From assembly GCA_022794265.1 (NCBI GenBank), contig JAAWEK010000007.1, positions 62,001 through 126,000 on the forward strand: a DNA stretch of 64,000 nucleotides, given 5' to 3'. Position numbers and translations under genes: made by a program. The stretch comes from Lachnospiraceae bacterium (GTDB taxonomy: Bacteria > Bacillota > Clostridia > Lachnospirales > Lachnospiraceae). Of the stretch, positions 8,014-50,136 are shown piece after piece (position 1 is the first letter of the stretch; every line of letters starts with the position of its first letter). The notes beneath the pieces were generated by a model. It worked only from the letters and a program-made list of their open reading frames with translations. It did not search any database and was not told the DNA's origin.

Positions 8014-8129
8014 CAGTACAAACTGAGCAGACCGTGACAGAACGTCATGGAGTCGGGTCACAGAAGTGACAGTGGAATCTTTCATCCACGGGACAGTAGT
8101 TGCTAATACTGATTCGTGGGTGTTTTTTT
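8014..8129 (+). ncRNA. NiCo-type (czcD) riboswitch with overlapping terminator
   Basis: A four-way junction can be drawn by hand. P1 pairs CAGTA (8014-8018) and AGCA (8026-8029) with TGCT (8101-8104) and TACTG (8107-8111). P2 is TGAC/GTCA (8035-8047), P3 GTCAC/GTGAC (8057-8070) and P4 GTGGA/TCCAC (8072-8089). Purine-rich junctions with GGGACAG follow P4. ATCCACG (8084-8090) can instead pair with CGTGGGT (8115-8121) followed by seven T, giving a terminator exclusive with P4. Architecture, terminator logic and the CDF exporter downstream fit the cobalt/nickel riboswitch, which turns expression on with metal. The family assignment is from memory of the consensus. Confidence 0.8.
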
Positions 8130-26787: not shown

Positions 26788-27382
26788 CAGAAAGGAATGG
26801 ATTTGGGCAGTGTTATCGGAAGAAAATATTTGTGAATCCGTAAGGGAACCCATTATGCATGGCATCTGTGTCAGTAATCTGGCTTATATGCTTGCCATGG
26901 AGCTGGGAATGGAAGCATCCGGCTGCTATGAGCTTTCAGTAGCCGGGATGCTTCATGATATCGGTAAAATGAGACTGATTTCCTGCGTATACAGAGAGGA
27001 AGAGGAAACGCTGACTGTAGAACAAATGCGGTATATCCGGATGCATCCGAAACTTGGATTTGATATATTAAAGGACCGGGGATTTTCGGATTTTATATTG
27101 GAATCCATTTTATACCACCATGAGAATTATGACGGTTCTGGTTATCCGGAAAATCTGACCGGAGAGAATATACCGATGGGGGCAAGAATCTTAAGGGTTT
27201 GCGATGTATTTGCGGCATTGATTTCCGACCGTTCCTACCGAAGGGCATTTGACCGGGAAACGGCTGTTGAATTGATGATAGATGAAGTGAAAAATTTTGA
27301 CATGGAGATATTTTTAGCATTTATGAAAATTATAAATGATGTGAATCTCGATGTTATATTGGGAAAGGAAGAGAGACGATGA
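26768..27382 (+). CDS. stand-alone HD-GYP domain protein
   Basis: A protein of up to 204 residues, all HD-GYP domain. The HD pair is in [13 protein letters not shown], and [12 protein letters not shown] is the GYP signature, followed by [22 protein letters not shown] proteins hydrolyse c-di-GMP. The start is uncertain: TTG 26768 overlaps hemZ by 20 bp, while GTG 26810 lies downstream of AAAGGA. It overlaps hisS as ATGA. No sensor domain is attached. It is one of three putative c-di-GMP phosphodiesterases in the window. Confidence 0.8.
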
Positions 27383-30497: not shown

Positions 30498-30510
30498 TTC
30501 ATGGCATGAA

Positions 30511-30556
30511 AACAGGGGTTCTGGCAATCTGACCTGCCGGAACCTTTGTTTTTTTA
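30511..30556 (+). terminator. intrinsic terminator after aspS
   Basis: AACAGGGGTTCTGGCA (30511-30526) pairs with TGCCGGAACCTTTGTT (30535-30550), and a T run completes it. It separates the aminoacyl-tRNA synthetase genes from the next locus. Confidence 0.85.
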
Positions 30557-30598
30557 TCAAATAAAGATTAAAATTATATTAACATAAAAAGAAAAATC

Positions 30599-30627
30599 TT
30601 GTATTATGTCGAATTTTGTTGTAAAAT
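30599..30627 (+). promoter_or_regulatory. possible promoter of the 30704-49831 locus
   Basis: TTGTAT at 30599-30604, a 17-bp spacer and TAAAAT at 30622-30627, in an AT-rich 145-bp gap after the aspS terminator. It is the only good candidate before the long co-directional run. Confidence 0.5.
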
Positions 30628-30703: not shown

Positions 30704-31363
30704 ATGATTACGGAAGATAAAAGTAAAGTTAAATCCGGCAGAATCTATGAATATCTTACATTGGATGCAGTATATGGGCTGATACCGATAAAATTAAGAC
30801 TGCATATGCAGAGAGTTGTATCATATTGTGAGATTATGACCCAGTACATAGAGCGTGACATACGCTTTTTAAAAAGCATAGACAGAGAATTTTATCAGCA
30901 TACCCATGAGGTATTCCGGTATCATGATCTGGGTTATGCTTTTGTTCCGTGGAAACTGTATGGAACGGATGAAGAAATCAGGGAGCATGTTGATCTGGCA
31001 GAAGAGGCTTTTGAACGGGTTATTTATCACGATTGTTCGGACTTCGTATATAAAAAAGCTATGGAATGTGCCATTTACCATCACGAAAACTATGATGGAA
31101 GCGGATACCCGAAGGGACTGAAAGGAGAATCGATTCCTTTTACCGCCAGAATATGTGCAGTTGCGGACAGCTATGATCATCTGGTGACAAGGTATCCTTA
31201 TGGCAGAAGCGAAGGAAATTCGGAAATCATTAAAAGAATAGCAGAGGAATCCGGAAAACAGTTTCAGCCGGAGCTGGTAGAAGTACTGATAAACTGTGCC
31301 GGGAAATTCAGAAAACAGGACTGGCACAATGGTCTCTGCAGGAAGGAAGTTCTGCACAAATAA
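30704..31363 (+). CDS. HD-GYP domain protein heading the surface-fibre locus
   Basis: A 219-residue stand-alone HD-GYP protein. The HD pair is in FRYHDLGYAF, followed by [20 protein letters not shown] with the full GYP signature and ARICAVADSYDHL. The expected activity is c-di-GMP hydrolysis in the cytoplasm. It lies 23 bp before the first membrane-anchored protein of the fibre locus and shares its apparent promoter. That suggests it tunes c-di-GMP for that locus. Sequence differs substantially from the HD-GYP protein at 26768, so the two are not recent duplicates. Confidence 0.8.
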   Translation: MITEDKSKVKSGRIYEYLTLDAVYGLIPIKLRLHMQRVVSYCEIMTQYIERDIRFLKSIDREFYQHTHEVFRYHDLGYAFVPWKLYGTDEEIREHVDLAEEAFERVIYHDCSDFVYKKAMECAIYHHENYDGSGYPKGLKGESIPFTARICAVADSYDHLVTRYPYGRSEGNSEIIKRIAEESGKQFQPELVEVLINCAGKFRKQDWHNGLCRKEVLHK

Positions 31364-31386
31364 AATTTTAGACAGGAATGGGTGAT

Positions 31387-32268
31387 ATGATGGAGCAGGC
31401 GTTGACCATTCTGTTACGTATGAAATATTGGTTTAAGGAAGTGGGGTTGGGAATCCGGAACGTATTTCGGAGAAATTCCGTTAAGAAGATTATCCGGGTC
31501 TGTCTGGTGCTGATAGGAATATTATTTGTAATTGCAATTTTTTATCATCATTTAGGAAATTTTGTTGTTACTATAGACCCATCGCTTCAAAAGAAAGGGG
31601 TATATCTTTCCACTACGGAAAAATTTAATGATTTAAGAGTTAAACTTTTCGGTAGTGCATTGAAAGAATGCAACAATATTAATATAGCAGATATACCTTT
31701 GGATATTGACCAATATGAAGGAACGCATAACGGAAAGAATTATGTGGCTTATACATTTTACGTACGTAACGAAGGAAAAGAAACAATCAGTTATGAGTAT
31801 AATCTGACTGTGGGAGATAGTAGCAAAGGGGTGGAGGAAGCAGCATGGATTATGATGTTCAAAAATGGAAAACAGCAGGTATATGCCAAGGAGCGGGCAG
31901 ATAAAACACCGGAGCGGCAATATGCATATCTGAAGTATCCAATTATGGAGCAGGCGGATGAAACCATAAAACAAAGTGTTTTATTAAGCGAAGAGAACAG
32001 AGGATATCTGACAAATGCTGATATTGAGCGGCTGGGGATTCTGGATATTGACGGTTTGTATGAACTGCGGGCGAATCCGTTTATGTCTGATTCCCTGATT
32101 ACCAGAGGAATCGTCACAGATGTAAAGCCAAAAGAATATGACCGTTATACGGTTGTCATATGGCTGGAAGGGGAAGACCCGGACTGTGTGGATGCTATTA
32201 AGGGCGGATTCATTGAACTGAGAATGAGCTTCAGTATTATCGATGTGGAAGAAGAAACGGAAGAATAA
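31387..32268 (+). CDS. membrane-anchored protein of the fibre locus
   Basis: A 293-residue protein with one transmembrane helix (about residues 32-58) after a basic cytoplasmic start, and a roughly 235-residue outside domain. The domain has an Ig-like beta pattern (NYVAYTFYVRNEGKETISYEYNL) reminiscent of TasA/camelysin proteins. It ends with a motif, IWLEGEDPDCVDAI, that recurs in the next protein. Not identified beyond that. The start ATG 31387 is favoured over 31378 by distance to AGGA. It may be a fibre component or an anchor/minor subunit. Confidence 0.6.
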   Translation: MMEQALTILLRMKYWFKEVGLGIRNVFRRNSVKKIIRVCLVLIGILFVIAIFYHHLGNFVVTIDPSLQKKGVYLSTTEKFNDLRVKLFGSALKECNNINIADIPLDIDQYEGTHNGKNYVAYTFYVRNEGKETISYEYNLTVGDSSKGVEEAAWIMMFKNGKQQVYAKERADKTPERQYAYLKYPIMEQADETIKQSVLLSEENRGYLTNADIERLGILDIDGLYELRANPFMSDSLITRGIVTDVKPKEYDRYTVVIWLEGEDPDCVDAIKGGFIELRMSFSIIDVEEETEE

Positions 32269-32289
32269 ATAAATGGAAAGGAAATGCTT

Positions 32290-33165
32290 ATGTTCAATCG
32301 AAAATTAAAAAATGAGAATAAGAAATCAAAGAGACAGAAAATTATTACCAGTATCGTTACGGTATTGTCCAGTGTGGCGTTATTCACAACCGCTACCTAT
32401 GCATGGTTTGCGCTGACCAATTCACCGCAGGTAAGCCAGCTGACGTTAAAGGCAGGAACCAGTGGCAGTCTTCAGATATGCAATACACAGAATGGGAATT
32501 TTGGGGATACGATTACTTTGGATGTTCCGTCACAGAGTTGTCTGAAACCTATTACGACGCTGGACGGCACCCGGTTTTATAAACCGGTGTACGGACCGGA
32601 CGGCATGGTGTCAGGCATTGAACCTTCTGCGCTGTCAGGAGCGGAATTAGCTAATATAAGCAATAAGACGGAGGCAAACGGCGGTTATGTGATTCAGAAA
32701 ACTTTTTATTTAAGGGCAACAACGGAAGCATCCGTTGCTTTATCGGAGGTGGATGTAAGACTGGCAGCACCTCATGGAACCACACAGGGAACAAAGATAA
32801 CAAATGCGGATTCCAGCCGGGCGGCAGAAGCGGTTCGGATTAGTTTTACCTGTAACGGAAAAACGGTTATTCTGGAACCAAATGCAGATGCACAGGTTCC
32901 GGGAAGAACGGCACAGACTGCTTTGACCGGATTTGCAAATGTTTCCACAATGAAACAGTCGTCCTCCAATTTTATGTTTGCGGCAGCCGGAAGCGGCACT
33001 TATGATAAGGTTGCATCAGATGAGTTATTCCGGATACCGGTAAATACGGCGGTGCCGGTAACCATGACCGTGTGGCTGGAGGGTGCGGACCCGGATTGTA
33101 TCAATGCAATCATGGGAAATCTGATTAATGCACAGATACGGTTTATCAGCACGGATATGAGTTAA
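32290..33165 (+). CDS. TasA/camelysin-like secreted protein
   Basis: A 291-residue protein with a basic N-terminus, a hydrophobic segment and the boundary TTATYAWFALTN at about residues 34-45. This strongly resembles SipW-processed signal regions of camelysin/TasA proteins in Clostridia. The mature part is Thr/Ser/Ala-rich and beta-predicted, ending in VWLEGADPDCINAI, shared with the preceding protein. A SipW-like peptidase is encoded at 36377. It is probably the most abundant fibre-like candidate of the locus. ATG 32290 chosen by AAAGGA spacing. Confidence 0.65.
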   Translation: MFNRKLKNENKKSKRQKIITSIVTVLSSVALFTTATYAWFALTNSPQVSQLTLKAGTSGSLQICNTQNGNFGDTITLDVPSQSCLKPITTLDGTRFYKPVYGPDGMVSGIEPSALSGAELANISNKTEANGGYVIQKTFYLRATTEASVALSEVDVRLAAPHGTTQGTKITNADSSRAAEAVRISFTCNGKTVILEPNADAQVPGRTAQTALTGFANVSTMKQSSSNFMFAAAGSGTYDKVASDELFRIPVNTAVPVTMTVWLEGADPDCINAIMGNLINAQIRFISTDMS

Positions 33166-33202
33166 ATTACCAAATAAATACTAAGAGAAAGCAGGACAAG
33201 AT

Positions 33203-34807
33203 ATGAACGCATTTTTTAATTACTATTATGATTTGATTTGTGCGATAGGCAGAAATATCTGGTCAATCATCAGGAATCTTCTGGTTGGAATTGTGGAATT
33301 ATTCAATGTTTCATTCTATTACAAGATTTTTGTATCTTATAAAGAGAAATTTGGTGTTCCGGGATGGGTTATGTTTGTTATCGCTTCCCTGCTCATGCTT
33401 GTAGTTCTGGTTTTGCTGGGATACTTACTTTACAGGCTTATACGGAGATTTCTGAAATTTAAACAGCCGATTAAAGAAAATGAAGAATTAAAAGATGAAA
33501 TTACCAGATTAAATCATGAAATGTATAAATTGAGTTATGAAAGAGATAAGATACTGGCATTACAGGTTTCCAATCTGGGAATGGAAGTGAACCGGGATTT
33601 ATTACCGGTATCCGAAGAAGATATAAATTCCGAAAATTCTGATCCGGGTGACGGCGTACTGGTCAATCTGGATGACGATGATCCGATTAAAGTTGTGGTT
33701 GAAACTGCTGAAGATGACAGCAATATGAGATTTAACCGTCTGACGCTGGTGGATCGTTATTATCAGTCGGAGGCATATCAGAAGCCGGAGTATAATAATG
33801 ATATCAGCCTGGAAGATATGTGTAAGGATTTCAGAAACTTTTCGGCATCCAAACTGGGATTATATTACGATCTGGACCTGATTAAGTTTTTTATAGCTGC
33901 ATTGGGAGCCACAAAGATGATTATTCTACAGGGTATTTCCGGTACTGGTAAAACCTCCCTTGCATATGCGTTTGGACAATATATCTGCAGACCGTCTGTA
34001 ATCTGTCCGGTTCAGCCGGCATGGAGAGACCGTACGGAGTTATTTGGATATTTTAATGAATTTACAAAAAAATTCAATGAAACCGAATTTTTAAAAACAA
34101 TTTACGAAGCAAATTATTATGACGATATGCAGGTAATCGTACTGGATGAAATGAATATTGCCAGAGTGGAATATTACTTTGCGGAGATGCTGTCAATTTT
34201 GGAAATGCCCCGGGTGGAAGAGCGGGAAATCAGCATTGTTTCCTCTGTCTGGCCGAATGATCCGGAGAAACTGAGAGAAGGCAAACTTTTCATATCTCCG
34301 AACGTATGGTATATCGGAACTATTAATAATGATGATTCTACATTTGCTGTGGCAGATAAGGTATATGACAGAGCCATTCCGATTGATCTGGATACTAAAG
34401 CGGCAAGGTTTGATGCTCCGAATACGGAGCCGATGCGTGTAACATATCAGCATGTGGAAGAACTGTTTGAAAAAGCCAAAGTAAAATATTCAATGTCAGA
34501 GATTAACAAAGCAAAACTGGGAGAAGTGGACGACTATGTTATTAAACATTTCAGAATGACCTTTGGTAACCGTATCTTAAAACAGATCTATGATTTTGTT
34601 CCATGTTATGTTGCCTGCGGCGGTACGGAAATCGATGCTATTGATTTTATGCTGGCGAAAAAAATATTAAGGAAATTCAGTTCTCTGAATCTGGGATATA
34701 TTAGAGATGAGGTTGACGGATTTATTGCGTTTTTAAATGACACATTCGGATATGAAAATATGAACATAAGCAAGGAATATTTACTGAGGCTGAAAAAACT
34801 GGTATAA
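33203..34807 (+). CDS. membrane-anchored McrB-like AAA+ ATPase
   Basis: A 534-residue protein. A transmembrane helix (about residues 52-75) and a coiled coil (about 85-115) precede an acidic linker and the ATPase. Walker A is GISGTGKTS (residues 244-252) and Walker B is VIVLDEMNIARVEYYFAEML, the McrB-type DEMN signature. McrB is normally a GTPase in restriction systems, but here there is no DNA-recognition domain, the protein is membrane-tethered and the neighbours are secretion genes. It is paired with a McrC/DUF2357-like gene 67 bp downstream. The likely role is a remodelling ATPase for assembly or export; this is inference. Confidence 0.75.
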   Translation: MNAFFNYYYDLICAIGRNIWSIIRNLLVGIVELFNVSFYYKIFVSYKEKFGVPGWVMFVIASLLMLVVLVLLGYLLYRLIRRFLKFKQPIKENEELKDEITRLNHEMYKLSYERDKILALQVSNLGMEVNRDLLPVSEEDINSENSDPGDGVLVNLDDDDPIKVVVETAEDDSNMRFNRLTLVDRYYQSEAYQKPEYNNDISLEDMCKDFRNFSASKLGLYYDLDLIKFFIAALGATKMIILQGISGTGKTSLAYAFGQYICRPSVICPVQPAWRDRTELFGYFNEFTKKFNETEFLKTIYEANYYDDMQVIVLDEMNIARVEYYFAEMLSILEMPRVEEREISIVSSVWPNDPEKLREGKLFISPNVWYIGTINNDDSTFAVADKVYDRAIPIDLDTKAARFDAPNTEPMRVTYQHVEELFEKAKVKYSMSEINKAKLGEVDDYVIKHFRMTFGNRILKQIYDFVPCYVACGGTEIDAIDFMLAKKILRKFSSLNLGYIRDEVDGFIAFLNDTFGYENMNISKEYLLRLKKLV

Positions 34808-34874
34808 GTGAGACCCCCGGGAACAGGCCGGAAGTGTTTGTGCCGGTTTGAAATACAGACACATATAGAAAGGC

Positions 34875-36380
34875 ATGGAGATAGGCTTGGAAAATGTAAC
34901 AGAAGAACTTTATAAAAGATTTCAAGAAAATTTTGTAGCTACTGCAAAAGATAATCCGTTTTATAAATATTATTATAATCTGTTGGATACCGGAACCGTA
35001 TATAGTAAATTTTTCAATCGTAAATTACTGAAGGAAATTGATGAAGAATGGGTAACAGCAGTAGAAACGGCCCTTCCGCATATTCAGTATGTTATTGACC
35101 ATCCGAGAACATTTATAGAGGAAGACAGACAGATTGTCAGTGTAGCGGTTGCTAAAAAGTTTACAGTTGAATCCATCCGGCATATGGCGCAGCATTCGGA
35201 GATGGTTGACCGGATAAAACCCGATGGGATGGTGGAGCCCAATAAGGTCCTGAATATATTTAAGGAAGAAAGTCTGAATACCTATGAAAACCGTTTTATC
35301 AATACGCTGTTGAAGGAATTAAGGGATTTTGTCAACAAACGTGCGGAGGTAATCTTTGAGCGGAGCAAAAATGAAGACGGTGTCAGACTGGATATTGACG
35401 GAACCATTGATAATTATTCGGAAGTTGTCACCTATAAGCTGGAGATGCGTATCCGGGAAAAGCAGACGGATATGTCCAATGATAAAGAAAACCTGAATAT
35501 ATTTAACCGGGTATCTTCTCTGCACAGGCAGGTGAACGATATGGCATCTTCAGGTTTTATGCTTTCCATGATGCCTTATCCCCTTGTAAAACATCCGGTG
35601 GTAAAAACCAATGCTATAGCCAAAAATATTCATTATAAAGAATGTTATAATTTGTGGAATTTTATTCATTCCTATGAGCGCATCGGATATAAGGTGGAAC
35701 TCATCGAACAGGACCCGGTCATAAACAAAAAGTTTGAAGAAGACATTTATAATTTTATGCTTCTGAATTATGTAATTCTTCGGGAGCATATGACAAATAA
35801 GGATATTCTGAGGCTTGACAAAGGGCTGAAACCGAAGGAATATACGGTGAATTATATTCAGCAGTTTGTAAAGGAACTGGTGTATGAATATGATATATCT
35901 GAATCCGATTTAAAACAGCTGCTTCTGTCTGAGCTGGTAAAAGCCCAGTCCGAAAAGCGTGAGATTTTGAAAAAGGCAGAAGAGATTAAGACAAGGGCAG
36001 AGGGCAAGATTAAGGCAGCAGAAGAAAATTCCCTGGACAGCTGGAATACCTTCTTAAAGGCACAAAAGCAGGAAACTGATGTAAAGGAAGAAGCAGAGAT
36101 TTCAAAGAGTACGCTGACAAAACGGGAAAAAGACAGACTACGGAAAGCAAAAAACCAGAAGAAGAAACAACAGCAGAAAGAGCAGGAAGAGCAGCGCAGA
36201 CTGAAACAGCAGAAAGCGCAGGAGGAACGGATTGCGGCGGAAAAAGTTGAAGCAAAGGCTTCCGGACACGAAGAGAATGATACTGGAAACGGTGGAGCAG
36301 AAATTGAAACCGTAACGGCTCAGAATGACAGACCAGCTAAAAAAACGGGTTGGTTTGCAAGATTTAGAAATAAAACATGA
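34875..36380 (+). CDS. McrC/DUF2357-like partner of the AAA+ ATPase
   Basis: A 501-residue soluble protein. The central NTYENRFINTLLKELRDFV is the conserved stretch seen in McrC/DUF2357-type partners of McrB ATPases. Instead of a recognisable PD-(D/E)XK nuclease, the C-terminal 145 residues are a highly charged Lys/Glu/Gln coiled coil with a basic end. That argues against a nuclease and for a scaffold or adaptor. The stop overlaps the sipW start as ATGA, so ATPase partner and signal peptidase are translationally coupled. The start may be ATG 34875 or TTG 34887. Family call by eye only. Confidence 0.55.
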   Translation: MEIGLENVTEELYKRFQENFVATAKDNPFYKYYYNLLDTGTVYSKFFNRKLLKEIDEEWVTAVETALPHIQYVIDHPRTFIEEDRQIVSVAVAKKFTVESIRHMAQHSEMVDRIKPDGMVEPNKVLNIFKEESLNTYENRFINTLLKELRDFVNKRAEVIFERSKNEDGVRLDIDGTIDNYSEVVTYKLEMRIREKQTDMSNDKENLNIFNRVSSLHRQVNDMASSGFMLSMMPYPLVKHPVVKTNAIAKNIHYKECYNLWNFIHSYERIGYKVELIEQDPVINKKFEEDIYNFMLLNYVILREHMTNKDILRLDKGLKPKEYTVNYIQQFVKELVYEYDISESDLKQLLLSELVKAQSEKREILKKAEEIKTRAEGKIKAAEENSLDSWNTFLKAQKQETDVKEEAEISKSTLTKREKDRLRKAKNQKKKQQQKEQEEQRRLKQQKAQEERIAAEKVEAKASGHEENDTGNGGAEIETVTAQNDRPAKKTGWFARFRNKT

Positions 36381-36976
36381 AAAAAAATTCTTTAAAAATA
36401 TTTCATTTGTTTGTTGACATATTATTTGTCGGATTTATGCTTACATTTGGTTATATCTTTTTTACGGTATATTATGGGCAGGTTCCGAATCTGTTTGGAT
36501 ATCATTTTTTAAGGGTTATCAGTACCAGTATGACACCGGTGATTGATGAAGGCGACTGTATTGTTGTAAAAAGCATAGCTGCCCACCGGCTGGAGGTGGG
36601 GGATATTATAACCTTTCATTCGGAAGACCCGTATATATACGGATATTTAAATACCCACAGAATTGTGAGTATTGAAACGGATGAGAATGATAATCTTGTA
36701 TTTCATACCAAAGGGGATGCCAACAGCGGAGAAGATGTCTACACGGTAAAAGAAGAAAATATTATTGGAAAATACTGCGGGGAACTGGCATTTGGAGAAC
36801 TTCTGACGAAAGGGCTTTCCTTATTATCCAACCAGAAAATATATTTCATGGTAGTTATGATGCCGATTTTGCTTTGTATGATAAGCAGTATTGTTTCCAT
36901 CATCAGGATTCTGTTTGAAGATGAAACGGAAATAGAATCCATTGAGAATATAGAAGAGCAGGGAGGTCGGAAATGA
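36377..36976 (+). CDS. sipW: SipW-like signal peptidase I
   Basis: A 199-residue membrane protease of the archaeal/ER type. Catalytic Ser51 lies in ISTSMTPVIDEGDCIVVK, and His94 (LNTHRIVSI) takes the place of the Lys used by standard bacterial enzymes; the GDANSGED box follows. Transmembrane helices are at about 9-31 and near 155-178. SipW enzymes process TasA/camelysin precursors. It overlaps the genes on both sides by four bases, in the middle of five candidate substrates. Confidence 0.88.
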   Translation: MKKNSLKIFHLFVDILFVGFMLTFGYIFFTVYYGQVPNLFGYHFLRVISTSMTPVIDEGDCIVVKSIAAHRLEVGDIITFHSEDPYIYGYLNTHRIVSIETDENDNLVFHTKGDANSGEDVYTVKEENIIGKYCGELAFGELLTKGLSLLSNQKIYFMVVMMPILLCMISSIVSIIRILFEDETEIESIENIEEQGGRK

Positions 36977-37662
36977 TGCATTTAAAAGAAAAGGTAAAAA
37001 AAATATTTAACCAGAAGCATGTTATGATGCTGATATCCATGGCTATCCTTGTCATAATGTTAATTTCAGCAACGATTGCATGGTTTGTATTGTCAAGGAC
37101 TGCTTCTGTGAAAAGTTTCGGCGGAAAAATATCGGAATGGGATTTTCTTATATCTAAGACATCCGGTGGTTCACCGATTCGTCCCAATGAAACGCTGGAC
37201 TTTAAAGTAGATGATGTTTTAAATGTAAAAAAAGGAAAAATGGCGCCGGGAACTACCGGAACCATAGAATTTTACGTGAAAACCACAACGGACGTGGTAA
37301 CAGCATACAAAGTTTATGTGGATAAATCAAAGCTATCCATGAAAGTAGACGATAAGCATGACTATTCCGATATCCTGAAAAAGCATATTGTGTTTTATAC
37401 GGATGACACTTATCAGACGGAAATTTCAGAAAAGCAGCCCTTTACTGGAACATTGAAGCAGAATGAAGAAAAAAAGATTGTATTATACTGGAAATGGCCT
37501 TATGACGGCAGTGAGATTATGCCGGATACCATCGTGGATGATAAAGAAATTAAGGCATTTTTAAAACAATATGATGAAGAAGATAATCTGATCAGCAAAA
37601 ATAGAAATTATATAACAGGAAATATCAGTATTACAGCATATGGTGTTCAAAAAGAACCGTAA
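36973..37662 (+). CDS. TasA/camelysin-like SipW substrate candidate
   Basis: A 229-residue protein with a long hydrophobic signal (about residues 16-38) ending ISATIAWFVLSR, the same IAWF-type boundary as the protein at 32290. The mature domain is beta-rich, with GTTGTIEFYVKTTTDVVTAYKVYV typical of TasA-fold strands. Translationally coupled to sipW. Expected location: outer face of the membrane or fibre. Confidence 0.7.
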   Translation: MMHLKEKVKKIFNQKHVMMLISMAILVIMLISATIAWFVLSRTASVKSFGGKISEWDFLISKTSGGSPIRPNETLDFKVDDVLNVKKGKMAPGTTGTIEFYVKTTTDVVTAYKVYVDKSKLSMKVDDKHDYSDILKKHIVFYTDDTYQTEISEKQPFTGTLKQNEEKKIVLYWKWPYDGSEIMPDTIVDDKEIKAFLKQYDEEDNLISKNRNYITGNISITAYGVQKEP

Positions 37663-37705
37663 AGCAGGTAACGGCATGTTTTGAAAGGTGGGAGAAATTA
37701 TAACG

Positions 37706-38353
37706 ATGACAAAGAAAAACGGTACTAAATCAAATAGACATCGGAAGATGCTGGCTGCGTCCTTCAGTGTTATGTTAATAATATCTTTTACAGTCATTGC
37801 TGTTGCTAAATTTTATAAGGAAGAAAATGTGAAAACGGTATTGAGTGGGGATAATATCGCATCTTATCATTTGGAACTGGTGGGAACCGGTAAAGAAACG
37901 ACACTGACGCAGGAACTGTTATTGGCAGACTTAAATCCGGGGGATATCAGAACTGTAGAATTTTTTGTTACCAATGGTAATGAAGAGAAAAAGTTATACT
38001 CGGATGTGTCCATGGATTATACAATACAGATTGTACATACCAGCAATATTCCATTGATTTATGAACTTTATAATGGGGCAGGTAAGAAAATAAATCCTGT
38101 CAGTGTTACGGAAACAGGAGAAAAATATAACAATACCGGAGTTTATATTAATTATGAGAATGACAATTCGGGAAAACTGTTTACTTTAAAAACAGCTTCC
38201 GATGATTCGGACAAAGTCAGCAGTCATAAATATACATTAAAAATTATATGGCCGAAGAATGATGAATCAGCAGATTTTAAATATGTGAAGGAAATCGATT
38301 TTTTATCTATCAATATAAATGCTTACGAGCATAATCCATTAAAAAACAATTAG
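37706..38353 (+). CDS. TasA-like secreted protein
   Basis: A 215-residue protein with basic N-terminus, hydrophobic segment (about residues 15-32) and a mature beta-domain that includes LNPGDIRTVEFFVTN, matching the conserved middle of TasA/CalY proteins. The start is taken at ATG 37706 behind GGTGGGAG; GTG 37688 is possible. Third candidate substrate of the local SipW. Confidence 0.65.
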   Translation: MTKKNGTKSNRHRKMLAASFSVMLIISFTVIAVAKFYKEENVKTVLSGDNIASYHLELVGTGKETTLTQELLLADLNPGDIRTVEFFVTNGNEEKKLYSDVSMDYTIQIVHTSNIPLIYELYNGAGKKINPVSVTETGEKYNNTGVYINYENDNSGKLFTLKTASDDSDKVSSHKYTLKIIWPKNDESADFKYVKEIDFLSININAYEHNPLKNN

Positions 38354-38376
38354 TCAGACTGTAAGGCGGGATTGCA

Positions 38377-39483
38377 ATGTCAATGAAAGAAAGAATGAAG
38401 GATATTTATCACTTTATAAGAAAACATAAGAGGACAAGCATACGGATTTCGGCGGTATTTACTGCAGCTGTAGTTTTTGTGTGCATTTCGTGTTTTTATG
38501 TGGTGAATGCCAGATATGTTACAAGTGATAGTGCAGGAAATGTCATTGGTGCAAACAGTTTTTATTTTACCAGTGATTATTTGAATGAAGCCGCATATGA
38601 CGGTACTGTTTCAGAATATGTCATGCATGGCTGGGATGGAATGTTAAAGAAAAGTTTTATGTTTAATATTAGAAATTATGATAATCCGCTGTTGTTTAAT
38701 AACAAGGATCAGAAAGTTAAATATCATTTTTCGTATGAGATATTGGGAAACGACAGGAATCTGGTGGATGCCAGAGTCTACAAGATTGTAAACGGAACCG
38801 AGACCGCAGAACTGGATGGAGTGCTGGACGGAGGCGTGGATTCCTATATTGCAAATCAGTATAAGCTGTCTATCGTTAGCAGAAATCCGGCGGTTCCCAT
38901 TACTCATGACGTTACGGTTCTGCTGAAGGTAAATACGGTGGAATCTCCGTATTATGCAGAATTATCCACAAAAGTGACCCTGCAGTATTCACCGTTTACG
39001 GATTTTATTGCCGAGCAGGGATTTCAGCCGGCTTCCGATGCAAATGCGGATAACAGCAGGGCATATGGTCTGATTTATTATATTAATACAGCAAACGAAA
39101 TAAATAATGATGAATTTGAAAATACGGATATTGCATTGGCAACAGAGAAGATTCACCTGAGTTGGGATAATGCGAAACTGGAGATTAATGCGTTTGACAA
39201 AAAGCTGAAAGACAGTTTTGCAAAAAAAACGGTGGAAGAAGTATTGCAGGACTATGAGCGTATAGAGGACTGTAAAAATACTATTATTCTTGATGATAAT
39301 AATACCGGACATATGTATTTTGAAGCATTGGCATATTCCTCTTTTGAAATTGTATTTCATAAGAGGAAGGGAATTGAGGCCGGTGACGACGTATGGAAAA
39401 ATGCCAATGGTGTTTACCTTTGGGATTTAAATCCGGCGCCGCTGGAACACGGAAATCTGGTATTTGCAGAAGTAGTTGATTAG
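38377..39483 (+). CDS. membrane-anchored or secreted protein of the fibre locus
   Basis: A 368-residue protein with an N-terminal hydrophobic helix (about residues 21-43) ending VVNARYVTSDS, then a 320-residue extracellular region with beta pattern (MLKKSFMFNIRNYDNPLLF). No lipobox, sortase motif or enzyme signature. It resembles an enlarged TasA-type subunit. It sits between the small TasA-like genes and the giant surface protein, with short gaps on both sides. Confidence 0.6.
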   Translation: MSMKERMKDIYHFIRKHKRTSIRISAVFTAAVVFVCISCFYVVNARYVTSDSAGNVIGANSFYFTSDYLNEAAYDGTVSEYVMHGWDGMLKKSFMFNIRNYDNPLLFNNKDQKVKYHFSYEILGNDRNLVDARVYKIVNGTETAELDGVLDGGVDSYIANQYKLSIVSRNPAVPITHDVTVLLKVNTVESPYYAELSTKVTLQYSPFTDFIAEQGFQPASDANADNSRAYGLIYYINTANEINNDEFENTDIALATEKIHLSWDNAKLEINAFDKKLKDSFAKKTVEEVLQDYERIEDCKNTIILDDNNTGHMYFEALAYSSFEIVFHKRKGIEAGDDVWKNANGVYLWDLNPAPLEHGNLVFAEVVD

Positions 39484-39509
39484 ATGTTTGATTGTAGGAG
39501 TGAATGGAT

Positions 39510-45500: not shown

Positions 45501-48029
45501 ATTGCAGCAGAAAATCTTACATCTTCAGACTGTACACTGATTTCCCACAGTACATCAGGCTCCGGAGTCGGAGGTATTATTGGAAATCTGGCTACACCGG
45601 GCAGCACAAGCAGTTATTATATTGCATTACATAATGTTACGGTAAAGGATAATGAATTTCTTGGAGAAGCTGCAAATATTAATTTGGGTAAAGTCTTTGG
45701 CATTCATTCCGGATTAAGTGAGACTACAGTTCTTGCTCTGGAGGACCAGGACAGCGAAGGCTTTACAGCTTCCACTACAGATAAAATATGGAATTGTGCA
45801 AACGGTTCTGGAAGATGTTTCTATATCTATTACAATGATTTTAAGGATTTGGAAGAGGCAGAGCAGAAATATGGAATTGACCGGGAGGAAGAAGATGAAA
45901 CTGGAAGACTGATTGCCAGATATGCCGAATGTCTGGAGGAGGATGTATTCACCAGGGGAACCGGAATTATTGACAGTGAAACCGGAGAAGAAATCATGGA
46001 ATCCATAGATTTGATTCCGGATACGCCGGAAATGGATAACACAATGGTAAAATGGTCCAGCGATGCGGGAAGTATTGAGGCTGTATTAAACAGCCTGTTA
46101 TCTTCACTGACCAATGGAACCGGTAAACTGAATGACGATATCAATGATCATATATCTGTAAAAGTAACACAGATGCAGGTCAGCAATGGAGTAGTAACGG
46201 CAGTGCCGGATGCAATACCTTCCGTATCCATTGAATATAAGGGAGGAAACTTTATTGTTACCAATAATAACAAATATGATACTGTTGAGAAATATGATAT
46301 CAATGGAAACTATGTACCAGGCACATATTCTTTGATTGAAGTTACCTATGGTATTGGAAAAAACAAATATACGGACACGATTCATATTCCGTTCTTTGTT
46401 AGTAATATGATAAATGTGGATGTTTATTCAAAACTGATAATCGGAGAAGAATATAATCTGGATATTATGCGGGCAATTGAAAGAACTTCCAGTGATGTAT
46501 TAAGAACCACAAAGGATAGTTCTTACAGTGTATATGTAGAATATATGTATAGTTCAAACCGTATGGAATTTGAAGAAGATATCTATATGTATAAAGGTTT
46601 CCGGCTGTATGAATCTCCGGACCCGAATATTCCGATTGGAACCAGGCTGACGCTGCTGGATGTAACGGATGACAATAATCCAAGGGCATATTACTATGAA
46701 GTAAATTCAGTTATGGATTTTGTACCGTTAACAAGTTTTAAAGATGAGAATGGAAACAATTATAAGGAAAGAAATATCAGAAGTCTGAAGGAATTGCCGG
46801 AATATCGGACATATACTACCTTATATGTCAATGGCAGAAAATTTTTAAAATATAACAGAGGTGTGGAGCGGTATTTTATTTTTGTAGACTGTAGCGCTGT
46901 AGAGCAGATTGGTCCGGAAAGTCAGATGTCGCCGACTCTTATGAGTGGAGTGGAATCCGGCCAGACGGAGTTTGTGGAAAATAAGGAAGTATTTTATGTG
47001 AAATACAGATGTTTTAATACTCTGTCCACTTATAACGGACGTACCATAAAGTTTGTGGATGATTCTGTATCTACAACCGGTGAAATTAATAAAAACAGTC
47101 AGTTGTCTTTAACGGCATCCTTTAGTGACAGTGCATCCGACACTTATTGGTCCATTCTTCGTGAATTTGATTATATAAATCGTGATAAATTTTTGGAAGT
47201 AGCAATTTATCTGGAGAATGAAAACGGAGACAAAATAATGCTTCCTTCGGGAACCAGAATAAAGCTTGGTTCGGATGCAGATTCCGTATATGAGGCGGCT
47301 AAAAATCTGTCCTCTATTTACTATTACAAAGATGGTGCCAATACCGACGGTTTCCGTCTGATTGATATTAAGAAAAATACAATAACAGATGTAAATATGA
47401 GTTTAGACTTTACATTTGCCAAGATGGAACATATCCCGGAGGGCAGATACCGGATTTGTCTGGAACTGGTGAGAGCAAAAAATAAGGATTTTCCAATGGG
47501 TGATGATACTCTGGACCTGATTCGCTCAGACTATATACAGGTAACGCCTACCGCTGAATATGGATTTCGTCTGAATACAGATGGCATCGATACCCTGGCC
47601 TTTAACAAAAATAATCCGGATATCGTGGATGAGTCCGGCAATTTGATTGTAGATTTTGAAATCAATGCAAATTCTACACTAAGCGGCGCGCTGGCAGCGA
47701 ATAAGCAGCCGGTTATAACTTTCCAACTCTATAAGAAGGATGAAGTACTGGGGGTATATCTGCCGATGGCTTCGGATTCGGTTTCTTATCCGGTATTAAC
47801 GTTGCAGCAGAACGGAACGGAGAGTAGTCTGGTTTTAAATGATGCTTCTGCGGATTATACCATTGATAAGCTGACCGGAGCAGGAGAACCTTATATGGTA
47901 ATACCGGCAAAGCTTTCCGTTCCAGGAGATTCGGATACTGTAAATTACAGATTAACGGCCTCTATGTATGTGGACGGAGAGCGTGTGGCAACCGACTATT
48001 TCATATTTACGGTTGCAGATATAAAATAA
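39510..48029 (+). CDS. giant modular surface protein (2839 residues)
   Basis: A secreted protein with signal sequence (hydrophobic about residues 16-36). Large modules each open with a DPYxI/L-type motif: ADNPYILDSEDDF near residue 58, GKGTEADPYLLTSAEDF near 424, GTGTAADPFIIDSEAKL near 927, GKGTKEDPYIIENIGQL near 1328. Between them are Gly/Asn-rich repeats such as SGGLIGHTT, VGGIIGN and IGGLVGYS, typical of GLUG-like parallel beta-helices. The last 700 residues change to beta-sandwich-like sequence. There is no LPxTG or S-layer motif, so the mode of attachment is unknown. It fills 8.5 kb of the locus and is likely an adhesin or matrix scaffold. Start ATG 39510 fits AGGAG spacing. Confidence 0.75.
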   Translation: MVQRRKEQLNHFILNHVKAFILLMLMLSAVGIVLLSDNIKAEEEPINLQLLKPAEVNSADNPYILDSEDDFITLQEYSKNHTCEGMYFRVGDTITANTFYYSEDEEDDEEGSESGIAYNLSLVGTIILKDESRTVFKGIGQNFAYPFKGDIDFKGITLRMDTSLFCFLGDGANIHQVTLVGKFGTSKIAEVMGSNISLGALASVVYLNEENSETNITNVSVLHANISGGNKSAAGIVGTVVGNKQNVTLNVNTVTVDAAIQAEGSSGANYGTALANGRILTNYPGYSGGLIGDVASLNQSFYINVNLNGNCKVAGTISNVKMGSGGLIGHTTHRVKVRMSGNFNLLDLIKLTGSHANYYRGYLVGSAAYSLIYATPSTVIQKPTDVNMVSCSDLDKDNQIEYAAQVYKNTEDRFFEPDVVISGKGTEADPYLLTSAEDFQRLSVLLMTQGLFGTWSDGGDYQSWFDVSEAPERKTIANIMQYIKGAYFMVTNDANLGEKGILRLNRDTTCAFYGCMEGKKGTYANGEYPTITLETDTRQGGVALFIYATGYLKNGVAQERVFKNFNLYGNITARSGISGLIYVIKEDNNSYSDYTFENIHMNLNLDATDRNNGLVTGLVGEAQLQNVTANATPVQLNFRDITFNGKLSANCNGAYGGALAGRIYNTSNKAGNACEVNIENFLFEGNIVNTGQGNCMLSAMIAYIANDNKALDAYLIDGISVNFVNYLKMNADGITIRNTMFDNSINTNYSETGLLGNTWVLEGSLKNIIFENIEYNLGGGYGALFLYRSDAILDFDGITYKNITMIKPSSPANTWISTMMYENYGQVKIRNFSSDNCVMKLNKSYPWVTEGAVNFMWYYDNRTQYYGYLCFEGNDEEGNPYSAVNSYKNKFKYTNLTGTADYGIYHGARLSYSTEDNMGNSLIHGTGTAADPFIIDSEAKLDIMAAFYNTIYGRRHYWLKYFADVESTLTEAEKNGRPGLQHSALIQRVGEGYFVFAKSMDLTGYSYYPAIVNNGKYYGFDVYRYYADNGNTKPTEAQIKAACVNAVSALSGGSSSISLETANAYKPQIHFAADTIANGAIHKGTWDSPNYYYGQAHRNMHASLFGGITGGTYNGYRKGNVIINNIMLDGIFSSESWGGTGGGALISRSYRYEAVVDATVSISNIDYGDTNIIARAATATTSTYGIGLMIESATGSDININNVRILPGSKVRCDALIGYQAGTNSKTVFRHIDLNAAIDNEHPENEVETQYHGDGYGFKYGYFFYYLKEGIAIYWYDEGTDVVTPGLPDSGGDRTMANPEVLEHQKYAYKLLAVDVNPLTSNITKGKGTKEDPYIIENIGQLTALGLFIRSKGDYPSYKEWYVGESTENNYVSSDGSLSGYQEYYPESWADNSNLLYKNRDNVLNSLSILMKSYYKLEADLDFANPPKGYEQAAGDFFGLGIVDYPFAGSIDGNGHTITYGDRNSSYINMFGLIAYGQGFKVSDMTIKSGDKPLLVNNTGEVYVGMVAAYVYGGDNVIDNVTIENNIRLRTNNVGNNVMVGGYVGYLRYGTLTVSGMKEDTFKNFQIGYSDAMSIPTYNNTYGKNISAIAGNVDGAFIMYRNEDNTVPETQALIDSTGVRTTEGDKQICRVEDLNYYNEYGISASRNRVLYNQKYFDSVGRIKVVPDDGDGALICELENEGQLLLYSLALASGSMSSYNQYSTTVPYNIRTTCQKIDEDFADWMKNEGETVLSDLYNCPYVFRYFDFTALPNGYLDTVHSGCSMLNGFVNTVRTSRNYRTTYKLTKDTDIYDMTQFGVGFRGIGDSTSLGTNTRSACNFAADLDGNSKTIQIDMNVTWDAGLFNNLNAGGNDNSKVPFIIKDFTVSGSIESNYTGHLGSVVGYYTNGYYTFDGINIKDMKLTQKHTSGGHVGGILGYAVWNNGTMLSYKNCTVGDETASDNKSVCIYSAGSNAIGGLVGYSSQMTFNNCRVIHTTIESQKGSVGGMLGITSASYGVNIAAENLTSSDCTLISHSTSGSGVGGIIGNLATPGSTSSYYIALHNVTVKDNEFLGEAANINLGKVFGIHSGLSETTVLALEDQDSEGFTASTTDKIWNCANGSGRCFYIYYNDFKDLEEAEQKYGIDREEEDETGRLIARYAECLEEDVFTRGTGIIDSETGEEIMESIDLIPDTPEMDNTMVKWSSDAGSIEAVLNSLLSSLTNGTGKLNDDINDHISVKVTQMQVSNGVVTAVPDAIPSVSIEYKGGNFIVTNNNKYDTVEKYDINGNYVPGTYSLIEVTYGIGKNKYTDTIHIPFFVSNMINVDVYSKLIIGEEYNLDIMRAIERTSSDVLRTTKDSSYSVYVEYMYSSNRMEFEEDIYMYKGFRLYESPDPNIPIGTRLTLLDVTDDNNPRAYYYEVNSVMDFVPLTSFKDENGNNYKERNIRSLKELPEYRTYTTLYVNGRKFLKYNRGVERYFIFVDCSAVEQIGPESQMSPTLMSGVESGQTEFVENKEVFYVKYRCFNTLSTYNGRTIKFVDDSVSTTGEINKNSQLSLTASFSDSASDTYWSILREFDYINRDKFLEVAIYLENENGDKIMLPSGTRIKLGSDADSVYEAAKNLSSIYYYKDGANTDGFRLIDIKKNTITDVNMSLDFTFAKMEHIPEGRYRICLELVRAKNKDFPMGDDTLDLIRSDYIQVTPTAEYGFRLNTDGIDTLAFNKNNPDIVDESGNLIVDFEINANSTLSGALAANKQPVITFQLYKKDEVLGVYLPMASDSVSYPVLTLQQNGTESSLVLNDASADYTIDKLTGAGEPYMVIPAKLSVPGDSDTVNYRLTASMYVDGERVATDYFIFTVADIK

Positions 48030-48042
48030 GGGAAGGATATTT

Positions 48043-48306
48043 ATGAAATTATTTATTGTATATCTGATATTCATCAACGGAGTGGCGTTTTCCATGATGG
48101 GGATTGATAAGTATAAAGCGAAGCATAATAAATGGAGAATTTCCGAACGAAGTCTGTTTATGAGTGCCATACTGTTAGGCAGTGGGGGAGCCATACTGGG
48201 GATGAGATGTTTCAGGCATAAGACAAAGCATACAAGCTTTGTCTTAGGAATGCCGATTTTGTTAATAATACAAATTATGATTGCATGTTTCCTGTTGTGG
48301 CATTAA
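48043..48306 (+). CDS. DUF1294 small membrane protein
   Basis: An 87-residue protein with two or three membrane segments and the DUF1294 pattern MGIDKYKAKHNKWRISE and LLGSGGAILGMRCFRHK. Function is unknown in the family. It starts 13 bp after the giant protein gene behind GGAAGGA and therefore belongs to the same operon, though the link may be accidental. Confidence 0.75.
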   Translation: MKLFIVYLIFINGVAFSMMGIDKYKAKHNKWRISERSLFMSAILLGSGGAILGMRCFRHKTKHTSFVLGMPILLIIQIMIACFLLWH

Positions 48307-48352
48307 GCCATTAGGAATGAAAATGCGGTATATCAGCTAAAGGATGGTATAT

Positions 48353-49831
48353 ATGAAGATGGGCTTAAAGAAACAGAAAAAAAGAAACGAACATACAGAT
48401 ACGGGACTTAATTCCGCACAGGAATCTTTGGAGTTAAATGGTACAGAGCAGGCGGAAACAGAATTGTCGCCGGAAGAACAGATTAAGCAGTTAGAGCAGA
48501 TTGCTTATTATGATACCATTACCAAGCTGCCAAATATGGCGAAATTTTCTGAGGACTGCCGGAGTATGATTCGGGAATTTCCGGAAGCATATTTTGGTGT
48601 GATTGTATTTGAAATTGAAAATCTGGATAAAATACGTATATTATACGGACTTCAGGAATGTGACAGGGTGCGGTGTTATGTGGCGGATTCCATGCAGGAG
48701 CTTTTAAAAATGGGATATATCTATGGACGTATTCATGAGGACCTGTTCGCAGTATTTGCCAATTTCGATGAAGAAGACGAATTAACTAATCTGGTAGATT
48801 TGCTGACCAACGGAATTCGGGAATACTCCAACAATGCCAAACTGTTTTTTTCATTCGGTATCTACAAGATAGAAGATAATTCCAAGGAAATATGGGAAAT
48901 GGCCAACCTGGCAGAACTGGCAAAGAGAACTGTAAAATCGGATTCTGCCGTTAATTATGCATTTTATACGCCGGAACTGAATGCCAGACTGTTGGAAGAC
49001 AAGCAGATGGGCGCGGAGATGGATTACGCTCTGGAACATCACCAGTTTGTAATGTTTCTGCAGCCCATGGTAAATCTTAGAACCCATGAAATCATCGGGG
49101 CAGAAGCTCTGGTTCGGTGGGATCATCCGGAAAAAGGTATTTTGTCGCCTTTTAAATTTATTCCGTTGTTTGAAGCCAATAATTTCATGATCAAACTGGA
49201 TCATTATATCTGGCGGGAAGCCTTTAAGACCATCCGTCACTGGATTGACAATAAAATTGAACCGATTCCCATATCCATTAATATTTCACCGATTCACTTT
49301 GAGCATCCGAGATTTGTGGAAACCCTGTGTAATTATGCAGAACAGTTCCGGATTCCAAAGAATATGATTCAGTTGGAGATAGCGGAACGTTCCTTTTCAG
49401 ATTCCAAGGAAAATATGAAAGATGTTCTTATGGAATTAAACGAAGAGGGATTCCGGTTGTGTATCGACAATTATGGAAGTTATCAGGCTCCTCTGAACGC
49501 CATAAAAGATTATCCTGTATCTGTTATCAAAATGGACCGCTTGTTCCTGAACAAGAATCTGGATAACGAAGAAGGTCTGACACTGGTACGATATATTCAT
49601 GCCATGGCCAAGGAATTGAACCGGGATGTAATTGCCGAAGGTGTGGAAACCATTGAACAGGCCAGTAATCTCAGCGAACTTGGATGCGACTATGCCCAGG
49701 GTTTCTTTTTTGCAAAACCAATGGCATTGAGGGAATTTGACGCCTTTCATAAAAAAATACTAAAAGAAAAATATATACCGGCTGTGACGTATCCGACGTT
49801 TGAAGAGATAGAGAATGATTTGCTGCCGTAA
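48353..49831 (+). CDS. degenerate GGDEF plus EAL domain protein
   Basis: A 492-residue cytoplasmic protein. Residues about 55-205 are GGDEF-like, but the active site reads GRIHEDLFAVF, so cyclase activity is unlikely. The EAL domain starts near 220 with GAEALVRWDHP (Glu251), NISPIHF, KMDRLF, AEGVE and YAQGFFFAKP. The usual DD pair in loop 6 reads Asp372-Asn373 (IDNYGS), and the loop lacks the GTG motif, so hydrolysis may be weakened or the protein may be a c-di-GMP sensor. It closes the locus opened by an HD-GYP protein. ATG 48353 fits AAAGGATGG. Confidence 0.85.
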   Translation: MKMGLKKQKKRNEHTDTGLNSAQESLELNGTEQAETELSPEEQIKQLEQIAYYDTITKLPNMAKFSEDCRSMIREFPEAYFGVIVFEIENLDKIRILYGLQECDRVRCYVADSMQELLKMGYIYGRIHEDLFAVFANFDEEDELTNLVDLLTNGIREYSNNAKLFFSFGIYKIEDNSKEIWEMANLAELAKRTVKSDSAVNYAFYTPELNARLLEDKQMGAEMDYALEHHQFVMFLQPMVNLRTHEIIGAEALVRWDHPEKGILSPFKFIPLFEANNFMIKLDHYIWREAFKTIRHWIDNKIEPIPISINISPIHFEHPRFVETLCNYAEQFRIPKNMIQLEIAERSFSDSKENMKDVLMELNEEGFRLCIDNYGSYQAPLNAIKDYPVSVIKMDRLFLNKNLDNEEGLTLVRYIHAMAKELNRDVIAEGVETIEQASNLSELGCDYAQGFFFAKPMALREFDAFHKKILKEKYIPAVTYPTFEEIENDLLP

Positions 49832-49848: not shown

Positions 49849-50136
49849 GGCTGGCCGGACGCAGATGCGGAAGCCTTCGGGTATAGCTTGGTGACTCTCC
49901 AAAAGCCGGAAAGTTCTAAGTGTTCTGTGACAGGTGTTTTAAGACGGACGCTACCGTCAACAATTCGGCGTCCATGCCTCATTGTTGACTTTGCAAAAGT
50001 TACTCGTATGAACGAGTTACTTTTAACCTCGTGTCAGGCAATAGCTGTTTATTATAGCAGAACACTAAGAACTTCCATCTGCCTGTAGTGGAACATTCCG
50101 ACCGCCTGCACCGCGCATACCTGCGTCCGCTTAGCC
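49849..50136 (+). ncRNA. large structured RNA of unknown family, with pseudoknot
   Basis: The 433-bp gap between the EAL gene and glyA folds extensively by hand. Outer stem: GGCT (49849-49852) with AGCC (50133-50136) and GGACGCAG (49857-49864) with CTGCGTCC (50121-50128). A 15-nt stem at 49913-49927 pairs with 50058-50072 with a single mismatch. TGACA (49928-49932) pairs with TGTCA (50032-50036). Hairpin GGACGC/GCGTCC (49946-49973) has a loop containing GTCAACAAT (49956-49964) that pairs perfectly with ATTGTTGAC (49981-49989), a 9-bp pseudoknot. A CUUCGG tetraloop near 49874 favours the plus strand. It lacks the RNase P, tmRNA and SRP core motifs. Confidence 0.7.

Follow-up and report, generated by a model that had tools for sequence, protein, structure and literature searches.

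Why does a McrB-like AAA+ nucleoside triphosphatase (NTPase) stand among genes for secreted surface proteins, beside a SipW-type signal peptidase? The question is raised by a twelve-gene locus at positions 30704-49831 of a 64,000-nucleotide stretch of Lachnospiraceae bacterium DNA (GenBank assembly GCA_022794265.1, contig JAAWEK010000007.1, forward-strand positions 62,001 to 126,000), called the window below. In addition to the ATPase, its DUF2357 (McrC-type) partner, and SipW, the locus encodes proteins S1 to S5, a giant secreted protein, a DUF1294 protein, and cyclic di-GMP (c-di-GMP)-type proteins at both ends. We conclude that it is very probably a surface-structure locus of the type named CoCoPALM; whether it builds surface fibers by means of a nuclease-free, McrBC-like machine that works with SipW, runs on NTP, and is gated by c-di-GMP is, in our judgment, evenly balanced. 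The core of the original prediction for this locus (a SipW-type peptidase together with substrates of that type, a McrB-like ATPase paired with DUF2357, and a giant secreted protein) is supported.

Conservation of the gene set

The original prediction staked itself on conserved synteny, and comparison of relatives' neighborhoods showed that the gene set recurs. The set is more than a chance assembly because other genera have it too, with much of the order preserved. Among 150 genomes of the family, a close ATPase relative and the DUF2357 protein occur in exactly the same 12 genomes (own genome included); 8 further genomes hold weak McrB-like relatives only. The order HD-GYP, S1, S2, AAA+, DUF2357, SipW, S3, S4 position, S5 position, giant is kept in 5 of the 11 others (G056, G064, G125, G014, and G131), with S2 doubled in three of these, some S4 or S5 positions occupied by unlabeled proteins, and the G064 contig stopping inside the presumed giant. 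The remaining loci are rearranged or cut (G009 and G101), spread over contigs (G147), or divergent (G089, G102, and G073). Giant homologues are present in relatives' loci. As a control, the eight weak McrB-like loci gave no match to SipW, S1, S2, HD-GYP, or EAL, and one very weak match to DUF2357. In a nine-genome sample of the genus, the DUF2357 protein was found in five, the own genome among them; the four besides the own genome carry full or near-full loci, one with an EAL gene replacing HD-GYP. The ATPase was found in 21 of 391 genomes of the class (own included) at 1e-60. A DUF2357 profile search of 398 genomes across the phylum at 1e-10 matched only the own genome: probably this search is insensitive to remote forms or the sample was unlucky, given the 21 matches among 391 genomes that the ATPase profile had in the class. 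No relative was confirmed in viral contigs.

When one genome per species was scanned with the ATPase alignment, at least 546 coding relatives emerged; we kept the best 80 (the 80-locus set) and labeled their neighborhoods with profiles built from window homologues. These loci were fetched by the ATPase alone, using peptide patterns, one of which contained NNDD. Their record titles include Lachnospiraceae, Oscillospiraceae, Ruminococcus, Erysipelotrichaceae, other Bacilli, and Christensenellaceae; thus, the locus extends beyond Clostridia, the group for which it had been proposed. DUF2357 accompanies the ATPase in 77 of the 80 loci, S2 in 60, and S1 in 56, with S5 (n = 23), S4 and S3 (n = 22 each), EAL (n = 21), and HD-GYP (n = 11) found less often. 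SipW, counted by profile score (≥60 bits) because a motif pattern that passed only 31 of 80 loci was too narrow, lies on the ATPase's strand in 74 loci and occurs only as a fusion in L117, for a total of 75; in four of the five loci without it, the contig stops, on one side, less than 1.4 kb from the ATPase. In the 74 loci, the nearest SipW match is 1 to 5122 bp away. DUF2357, S2, and S1, where counted, likewise have a copy on the ATPase's strand.

Two further sets were used. Thirteen more loci gave a 93-locus set. Its rows cannot be taken as independent: L086, L087, and L104 hardly differ from one another; L052 and G547 are one contig and were counted once. The class ATPase search had matched 20 other genomes, and 17 of these supplied the 19 stretches of a later-fetched set; with two that repeat L071 and L066 set aside, 17 stretches remained. 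The stretches were sorted into single and paired/divergent types partly before and partly after their neighborhoods were viewed, and the longest-ORF (open reading frame) caller missed one listed ATPase in L183. SipW is present in 11 of the 17, and S1 in 9 of those 11.

A membrane-anchored ATPase and a DUF2357 partner fused to SipW in some loci

The ATPase matches the McrB family model at 3.7e-5, far under its cutoff, and a PDB profile search finds McrB chains (best, 3.2e-6). The NNDD motif is present in the window protein and in all 12 aligned relatives; across the 80-locus set, 71 ATPases have an NND pattern, one has NID, and eight match neither, although the fetching patterns included NNDD. 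All 80 have a strong hydrophobic segment within the first 140 residues, and the window protein has a linker that appears, by eye, heptad-like (that is, coiled-coil-like). Coiled-coil-type families also match the L074 DUF2357 protein, below their cutoffs. In six loci (L088, L095, L097, L117, L119, and L126), DUF2357 is followed within one protein by a linker and an intact SipW domain, a link between the McrC-like part and the peptidase; five of these records are titled Ruminococcus and one Oscillospiraceae, and Ruminococcus albus KH2T6 is among the six. The window SipW protein is above the cutoff of the archaeal-type signal peptidase model TIGR02228 and under that of the SipW equivalog (4e-24; 85 bits against a cutoff of 190); its only match in its own assembly is itself.

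As in McrBC and CoCoNuT systems, the locus joins a McrB-like NTPase to a DUF2357 protein, with the NxD motif of the CoCoNuTs, which raises the question of whether the pair is a type IV restriction-like defense module within, and co-regulated with, the surface locus, for example against phages that use the fiber as receptor. The ATPase matches the PADLOC candidate PDC-M26A (2e-39), five of the eight weak McrB-like relatives have an NxDE motif, and the NxD branch is described as largely restriction-related (PMC11090510). Unlike the restriction systems, however, the ATPase here appears to be membrane anchored and is surrounded by surface-protein genes, none of which is shared by the eight weak McrB-like loci; no nuclease family was found in the window proteins scanned or in six DUF2357 relatives, no methyltransferase family was found among the window proteins scanned, 24 of 78 DUF2357 proteins are only 361 to 394 amino acids (aa) long, and DUF2357 is fused to SipW in six loci. 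On this balance we consider a defense module very unlikely, and we reject a pure defense island because the proteins scanned gave no nuclease match and because of the SipW fusion and the surface context.

S1 to S5 and the giant protein

None of S1 to S5 or the giant matches a Pfam family; an NCBIfam scan of S1 to S5 gave no match for S1 to S4 and a single match, at E = 0.06, for S5. The S1 and S2 family profiles match each other (98.6%; E = 1.2e-15; 121 columns), and their shared domain ends in WLEGxDPxC: by this comparison, S1 is an anchored homologue of S2. We counted sites of the form A-x-aromatic only in proteins that scored >50 bits and had a hydrophobic segment. Such sites are present in 114 of 133 S2 to S5 proteins, 7 of 45 S1 proteins, and, among other proteins with a hydrophobic N terminus, 66 of 234; in the window S2, the crude pattern chose an earlier match than the site found by eye. 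An aromatic P2' residue is a published mark of the SipW substrate TasA (PMC10269814), and the locus resembles other SipW systems in pairing a peptidase of the endoplasmic reticulum/archaeal-type S26 family with aromatic-P2' substrates.

AlphaFold2 models of moderate confidence predict a long N-terminal helix followed by a beta-rich domain in S2 (predicted local distance difference test [pLDDT], 79; predicted template-modeling score [pTM], 0.76) and by a beta-sandwich in S4 (pLDDT, 80.6; pTM, 0.69). Foldseek searches returned no strong hit for either model: the best match of the S2 model was FimA (E = 0.0028; template-modeling [TM] scores, 0.30/0.50); that of S4 was PliG (E = 6e-4), with Bacillus Ena2A fibers near 0.004. 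Both predicted models fit a beta-sandwich fiber subunit without proving one.

We found no labeled DUF1294 homologue in the relatives' loci and therefore reject the DUF1294 protein as the system component that it had been taken for; it is probably a passenger outside the conserved set.

A c-di-GMP-type gene directly upstream of S1

By profile label, the gene directly before S1 in the 80-locus set encodes EAL in 20 of 56 cases and HD-GYP in 10 of 56, with two S1 genes lying at an edge. In the 93-locus set, a c-di-GMP-type gene occupies this position in 41 of 66 cases: HD-GYP in 16, EAL in 20, HD-EAL in 4, and PilZ in 1. Among these, the EAL label of L109 stands at Pfam 6e-4, under the cutoff; L058, L066, and L100 are HD-EAL by Pfam and L078 by our own profiles only; PilZ labels (G102 and L177) come from Pfam, our own profiles lacking PilZ. 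Elsewhere in these loci HD or EAL genes are uncommon: there are 51 against 1306 called genes of ≥100 aa, and about 40 of the 51 sit directly before S1 (Fisher test, 2e-48, ignoring kinship). The tree requires at least nine changes of label at this position. Among later-fetched loci, 7 of 9 have a Pfam c-di-GMP-type domain directly before S1: EAL in L170, L175, and L176; HD-EAL in L171 and L173; PilZ in L177 (1.6e-10); and GGDEF-EAL in L188. Neither L178 nor L179, whose genes follow the Bacilli-type order, has one.

In the active sites, we checked residues that matter according to the literature on these domains. All 15 short HD-GYP proteins, the window's included, retain the metal ligands and GYP, and all 15 have replaced the lysine of HDxGK (with Y in the window and L052 and with R in the other 13), so that the joint signature of HD-GYP phosphodiesterases (metal ligands, HDxGK, and GYP) is incomplete in the locus module. 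The 504-aa HD-GYP protein of L062 has lost one metal ligand. Of the 8 residues checked in EAL, none of the 19 aligned EAL-only proteins keeps more than 3. The four HD-EAL proteins keep 1 or 2 of 7 HD ligands and, in the three EAL parts aligned, 1 to 4 of 8. At the other end of the window locus, the EAL protein keeps 7 of 8 residues, its DD being DN, and its GGDEF domain is degenerate. Hence, "two c-di-GMP enzymes," as the ends of the locus had been described, overstates the case, and we reject the idea that both are active: each has lost active-site residues, and other clades have degenerate EAL, HD-EAL, or PilZ in the upstream place. That c-di-GMP genes stand at both ends holds in part; the upstream association extends well beyond the window, whereas the downstream EAL gene accompanies only some loci (homologues lie beside five of eleven family loci). 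The own genome has 14 GGDEF and 3 PilZ matches.

Might the upstream HD-GYP and downstream GGDEF-EAL proteins simply be ordinary phosphodiesterases that lower local c-di-GMP, the fiber machine itself sensing nothing? The intact metal ligands and GYP of the 15 short HD-GYPs and the well-preserved window EAL are what such enzymes would show, but the loss of the HDxGK lysine from all 15, the erosion of the 19 EAL-only proteins, and the presence of a PilZ receptor domain in the same position in G102 and L177 make this distinctly unlikely. Judged by the residues checked, the S1-upstream modules other than the short HD-GYPs cannot be normal phosphodiesterases. We prefer a reader to a degrader because the EAL-type modules look catalytically dead and two loci hold a pure receptor domain: a c-di-GMP reader appears to be the simplest common reading of the S1-upstream module.

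Some loci show other arrangements around these genes. In G102 (L049-L050), the CoCoPALM-type locus is followed after about 0.6 kb by a GGDEF gene and then by DUF2194, DUF3492 glycosyltransferase, PelG, and CotH genes; the pel-like exopolysaccharide cluster, with the glycosyltransferase and PelG, lies about 5 to 9 kb on. L175, L176, and L181 have a second large EAL protein (752 to 763 aa) after SipW, reminiscent of the two-ended c-di-GMP genes of the window. In L108 (9014-9991), L083 (8944-9999), and the corresponding position of other loci with the Bacilli-type order, the ATPase is directly preceded by a 325- to 351-aa protein for which Pfam found nothing over its cutoff; it is possibly these loci's own regulator where the S1-upstream c-di-GMP module is absent.

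Layout and boundaries of the window locus

Gene calls came from a simple longest-ORF caller, and sequence-family evidence from Pfam, NCBIfam, and PDB profile searches (Table 1). All twelve ORFs lie on the plus strand where the original prediction placed them, separated by gaps of 13 to 67 bp or sharing 4-bp overlaps (n = 2); the giant, given as 2839 residues, is two residues longer. The locus is flanked by aspS (ending at 30497) and glyA (starting at 50265).

Table 1. Features of the window locus (window coordinates; a slash within a motif marks the SipW-type site)
Feature	Coordinates	Strand	Properties
Intrinsic terminator after aspS	30508..30553	+	Hairpin -27.6 kcal/mol, z -6.34, with U-run
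Promoter-like site TTAACA-17-TATTAT	30579..30607	+	Upstream of first gene; weak evidence
HD-GYP-type c-di-GMP module, 219 aa	30704..31363	+	HD_5 1.4e-18; directly upstream of S1
S1, membrane anchored	31378..32268	+	Basic N-terminal tail; one transmembrane segment; hydrophobic from residue 38
S2, SipW-type secreted subunit	32284..33165	+	Site ATYA/WF; predicted N-terminal helix and beta-rich domain; motif WLEGxDPxC
McrB-like AAA+ NTPase, membrane anchored	33203..34807	+	Motifs GISGTGKTS, LDEMN, NNDD; hydrophobic segment from residue 58
DUF2357 (McrC N-domain) partner	34875..36380	+	Pfam 7e-8; alignment; charged C-terminal tail; no recognizable nuclease
SipW/archaeal-type signal peptidase	36377..36976	+	TIGR02228 1.3e-24
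S3, SipW-type secreted protein	36973..37662	+	Site A/WF
S4, SipW-type secreted protein	37688..38353	+	Site A/KF; predicted N-terminal helix and beta-sandwich
S5, SipW-type secreted protein	38377..39483	+	Site A/RY
Giant secreted protein, 2841 aa	39504..48029	+	No SipW-type site; three GxGTxxDP[YF] segments
DUF1294 protein	48043..48306	+	Pfam 1e-24
Degenerate GGDEF-EAL protein	48344..49831	+	EAL 3e-65

The aspS terminator, which a simple terminator scan of the region did not pick up, insulates the start of the locus from hisS-aspS. One promoter for the entire locus is no more than plausible, because promoter-like sites in the region are no commoner than in shuffled sequence (63 versus 67.9; standard deviation, 7.1), that is, not enriched. 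Elsewhere in the window are a TwoAYGGAY RNA (Rfam RF01731; E = 1.8e-11) at 49894-50087 (-), in the interval from the EAL gene to glyA; a NiCo riboswitch (RF02683) at 8013-8098 (+); and a further HD_5-domain gene (1e-32) at 26768-27382 (+), between a radical-SAM gene and hisS and outside the locus.

Relation to known systems

The arrangement was thought to be undescribed, but a signal peptidase beside an AAA+/DUF2357 pair had already been given a name: Bell et al. (eLife 2024; PMC11090510) introduce the CoCoPALM type in a short passage that defers its treatment. Its traits are a shortened NxD McrB-like NTPase, an FtsB-like transmembrane segment plus coiled coil, DUF2357 (McrC), usually a coiled coil on the McrC homologue, and a signal-peptidase neighbor (PMC11090510). 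The window locus shares the NxD NTPase, with an N-terminal hydrophobic segment and a linker that looks coiled-coil-like, DUF2357, and the signal-peptidase neighbor; it differs in adding the c-di-GMP-type gene before S1, DUF2357-SipW fusions in relatives, the S1/S2-S5 anatomy, and the giant. The main text of PMC11090510, searched by term, contains no c-di-GMP, EAL, diguanylate, or SipW, although its supplements may list these loci. Searches of the open literature, which leave most subscription journals and bioRxiv outside their coverage, found nothing that links CoCoPALMs to c-di-GMP or describes the fusions, and no tested function for CoCoPALMs; a search joining SipW, McrB, and TasA returned one unrelated paper only, and one joining SipW with AAA and MoxR returned none. 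What is new, then, is the placing of a c-di-GMP-type gene ahead of S1, the fusion of DUF2357 to SipW, and the homology of S1 and S2, within a type that is itself known but uncharacterized.

Two fiber operons are also close parallels. Bacillus subtilis tapA-sipW-tasA (PMC9674648) likewise has a dedicated SipW with aromatic-P2' substrates and an accessory or base protein plus a subunit, and the S4 model has a weak fold match to TasA; however, the operon as described has three genes, without an AAA+ pair or c-di-GMP gene, and no sequence-profile relation to S2 or S4 was found. Clostridium perfringens sipW-bsaABCRSD is a clostridial SipW operon that makes filamentous surface polymers, but as described it has no McrB or DUF2357 gene and is under two-component control (PMC7395162).

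A proposed model for fiber assembly

The sequence itself shows the anatomy and its conservation, the fusions, the S1-S2 homology, the SipW-type sites, and the losses in active sites; from there we infer polymerization, NTP use, c-di-GMP binding, and contacts between the partners as follows. The McrB-like protein would form an AAA+ ring, tethered to the membrane by its N terminus and stimulated by its DUF2357 partner; both would belong to one assembly with SipW, a physical link seen only as the fusion in six relatives. S1, the anchored homologue of the subunit, would be the fiber base. After export, SipW would release S2 to S5 from their membrane anchors, and these would polymerize starting from S1; the giant protein would be an adhesin, either at the tip or as a cross-linker. 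The product of the gene immediately preceding S1 (HD-GYP in the window; EAL, HD-EAL, or PilZ elsewhere) would read c-di-GMP and gate the machine, the simplest route being the cytoplasmic tail of S1.

Unfoldases are common among AAA+ proteins, which counts in favor of a different division of labor: the surface proteins and SipW would form fibers alone, and the AAA+ pair, instead of driving assembly, would act in quality control, unfolding SipW substrates that have stalled or extracting them from the membrane. Such self-sufficiency has precedents, since BsaA made in Escherichia coli polymerizes without bsaB and bsaC (PMC7395162) and TasA polymerizes by donor-strand exchange (PMC9674648). The company of DUF2357 and ATPase in 77 of 80 loci and the fusion to SipW in six indicate a core role for the pair, with which quality control is still compatible; we think this explanation unlikely.

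Several observations weigh against the assembly machine. Before S1, 25 of 66 loci have no c-di-GMP gene (an S2-type gene in 12, an opposite-strand gene in 8, an unassigned gene in 4, and SipW in 1), notably in the Ruminococcus clade that has the order S2-S1 and where the gene order is of the Bacilli type; the Lachnospiraceae-type HD-GYPs, their metal ligands kept, could be active enzymes. L055 is otherwise intact with full 10-kb flanks and lacks SipW, and a search of its draft genome, run with no positive control, was also negative. The crude A-x-aromatic pattern fires within the transmembrane segment of the window S1 as well. As to fold, S2 has no Foldseek match at E ≤ 1e-3, and S4 matches TasA (5of2) weakly (E = 0.018; TM scores, 0.36/0.41). 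Nor do sequence profiles place S2 or S4 in the TasA/camelysin family: PDB profile searches with S2 and S4 gave nothing meaningful and no relation to TasA chains, neither window protein matches M73 or the TasA/TapA NCBIfam models, Pfam M73 matches 1 of 22 S4 members (E = 0.06), and the TapA model matches 5 of 26 S2 members weakly (best, 1e-4). Finally, 6 of the 17 later-fetched loci (L182 to L187), with paired or divergent ATPases, lack SipW, S1, S2, and a c-di-GMP gene, so that the ATPase pair can exist without these surface partners.

The L182-L187 loci form a sister arrangement: a membrane AAA+ protein, DUF2357, and usually a second AAA+ protein, alongside large membrane-anchored proteins. 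In most of them two ATPases flank DUF2357. Of six such large proteins scanned, three (one each in L182, L184, and L185) have a transglutaminase-like domain. The ATPase pair may have a general role in serving surface proteins.

Returning to the c-di-GMP-gated machine, we propose tentatively, with more doubt than conviction, its most novel form: a restriction-type McrB/McrC motor has lost its nuclease, become membrane bound, and taken a signal peptidase as partner, a c-di-GMP receptor acting on the anchored base directly gates NTP-driven release and polymerization of subunits, and the whole is an unrecognized class of fiber machine in Bacillota. The c-di-GMP gene before S1, the fusions, and the S1/S2 pair turn the CoCoPALM label into a testable machine; the fusions and the c-di-GMP link hint at how the pairing of motor and peptidase is built and controlled. 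If the model is true, a defense-type motor would have been reused for building at the cell surface, energy would be spent in a fiber type believed to assemble without any, and gut and rumen Bacillota would have a direct switch from c-di-GMP to fiber.

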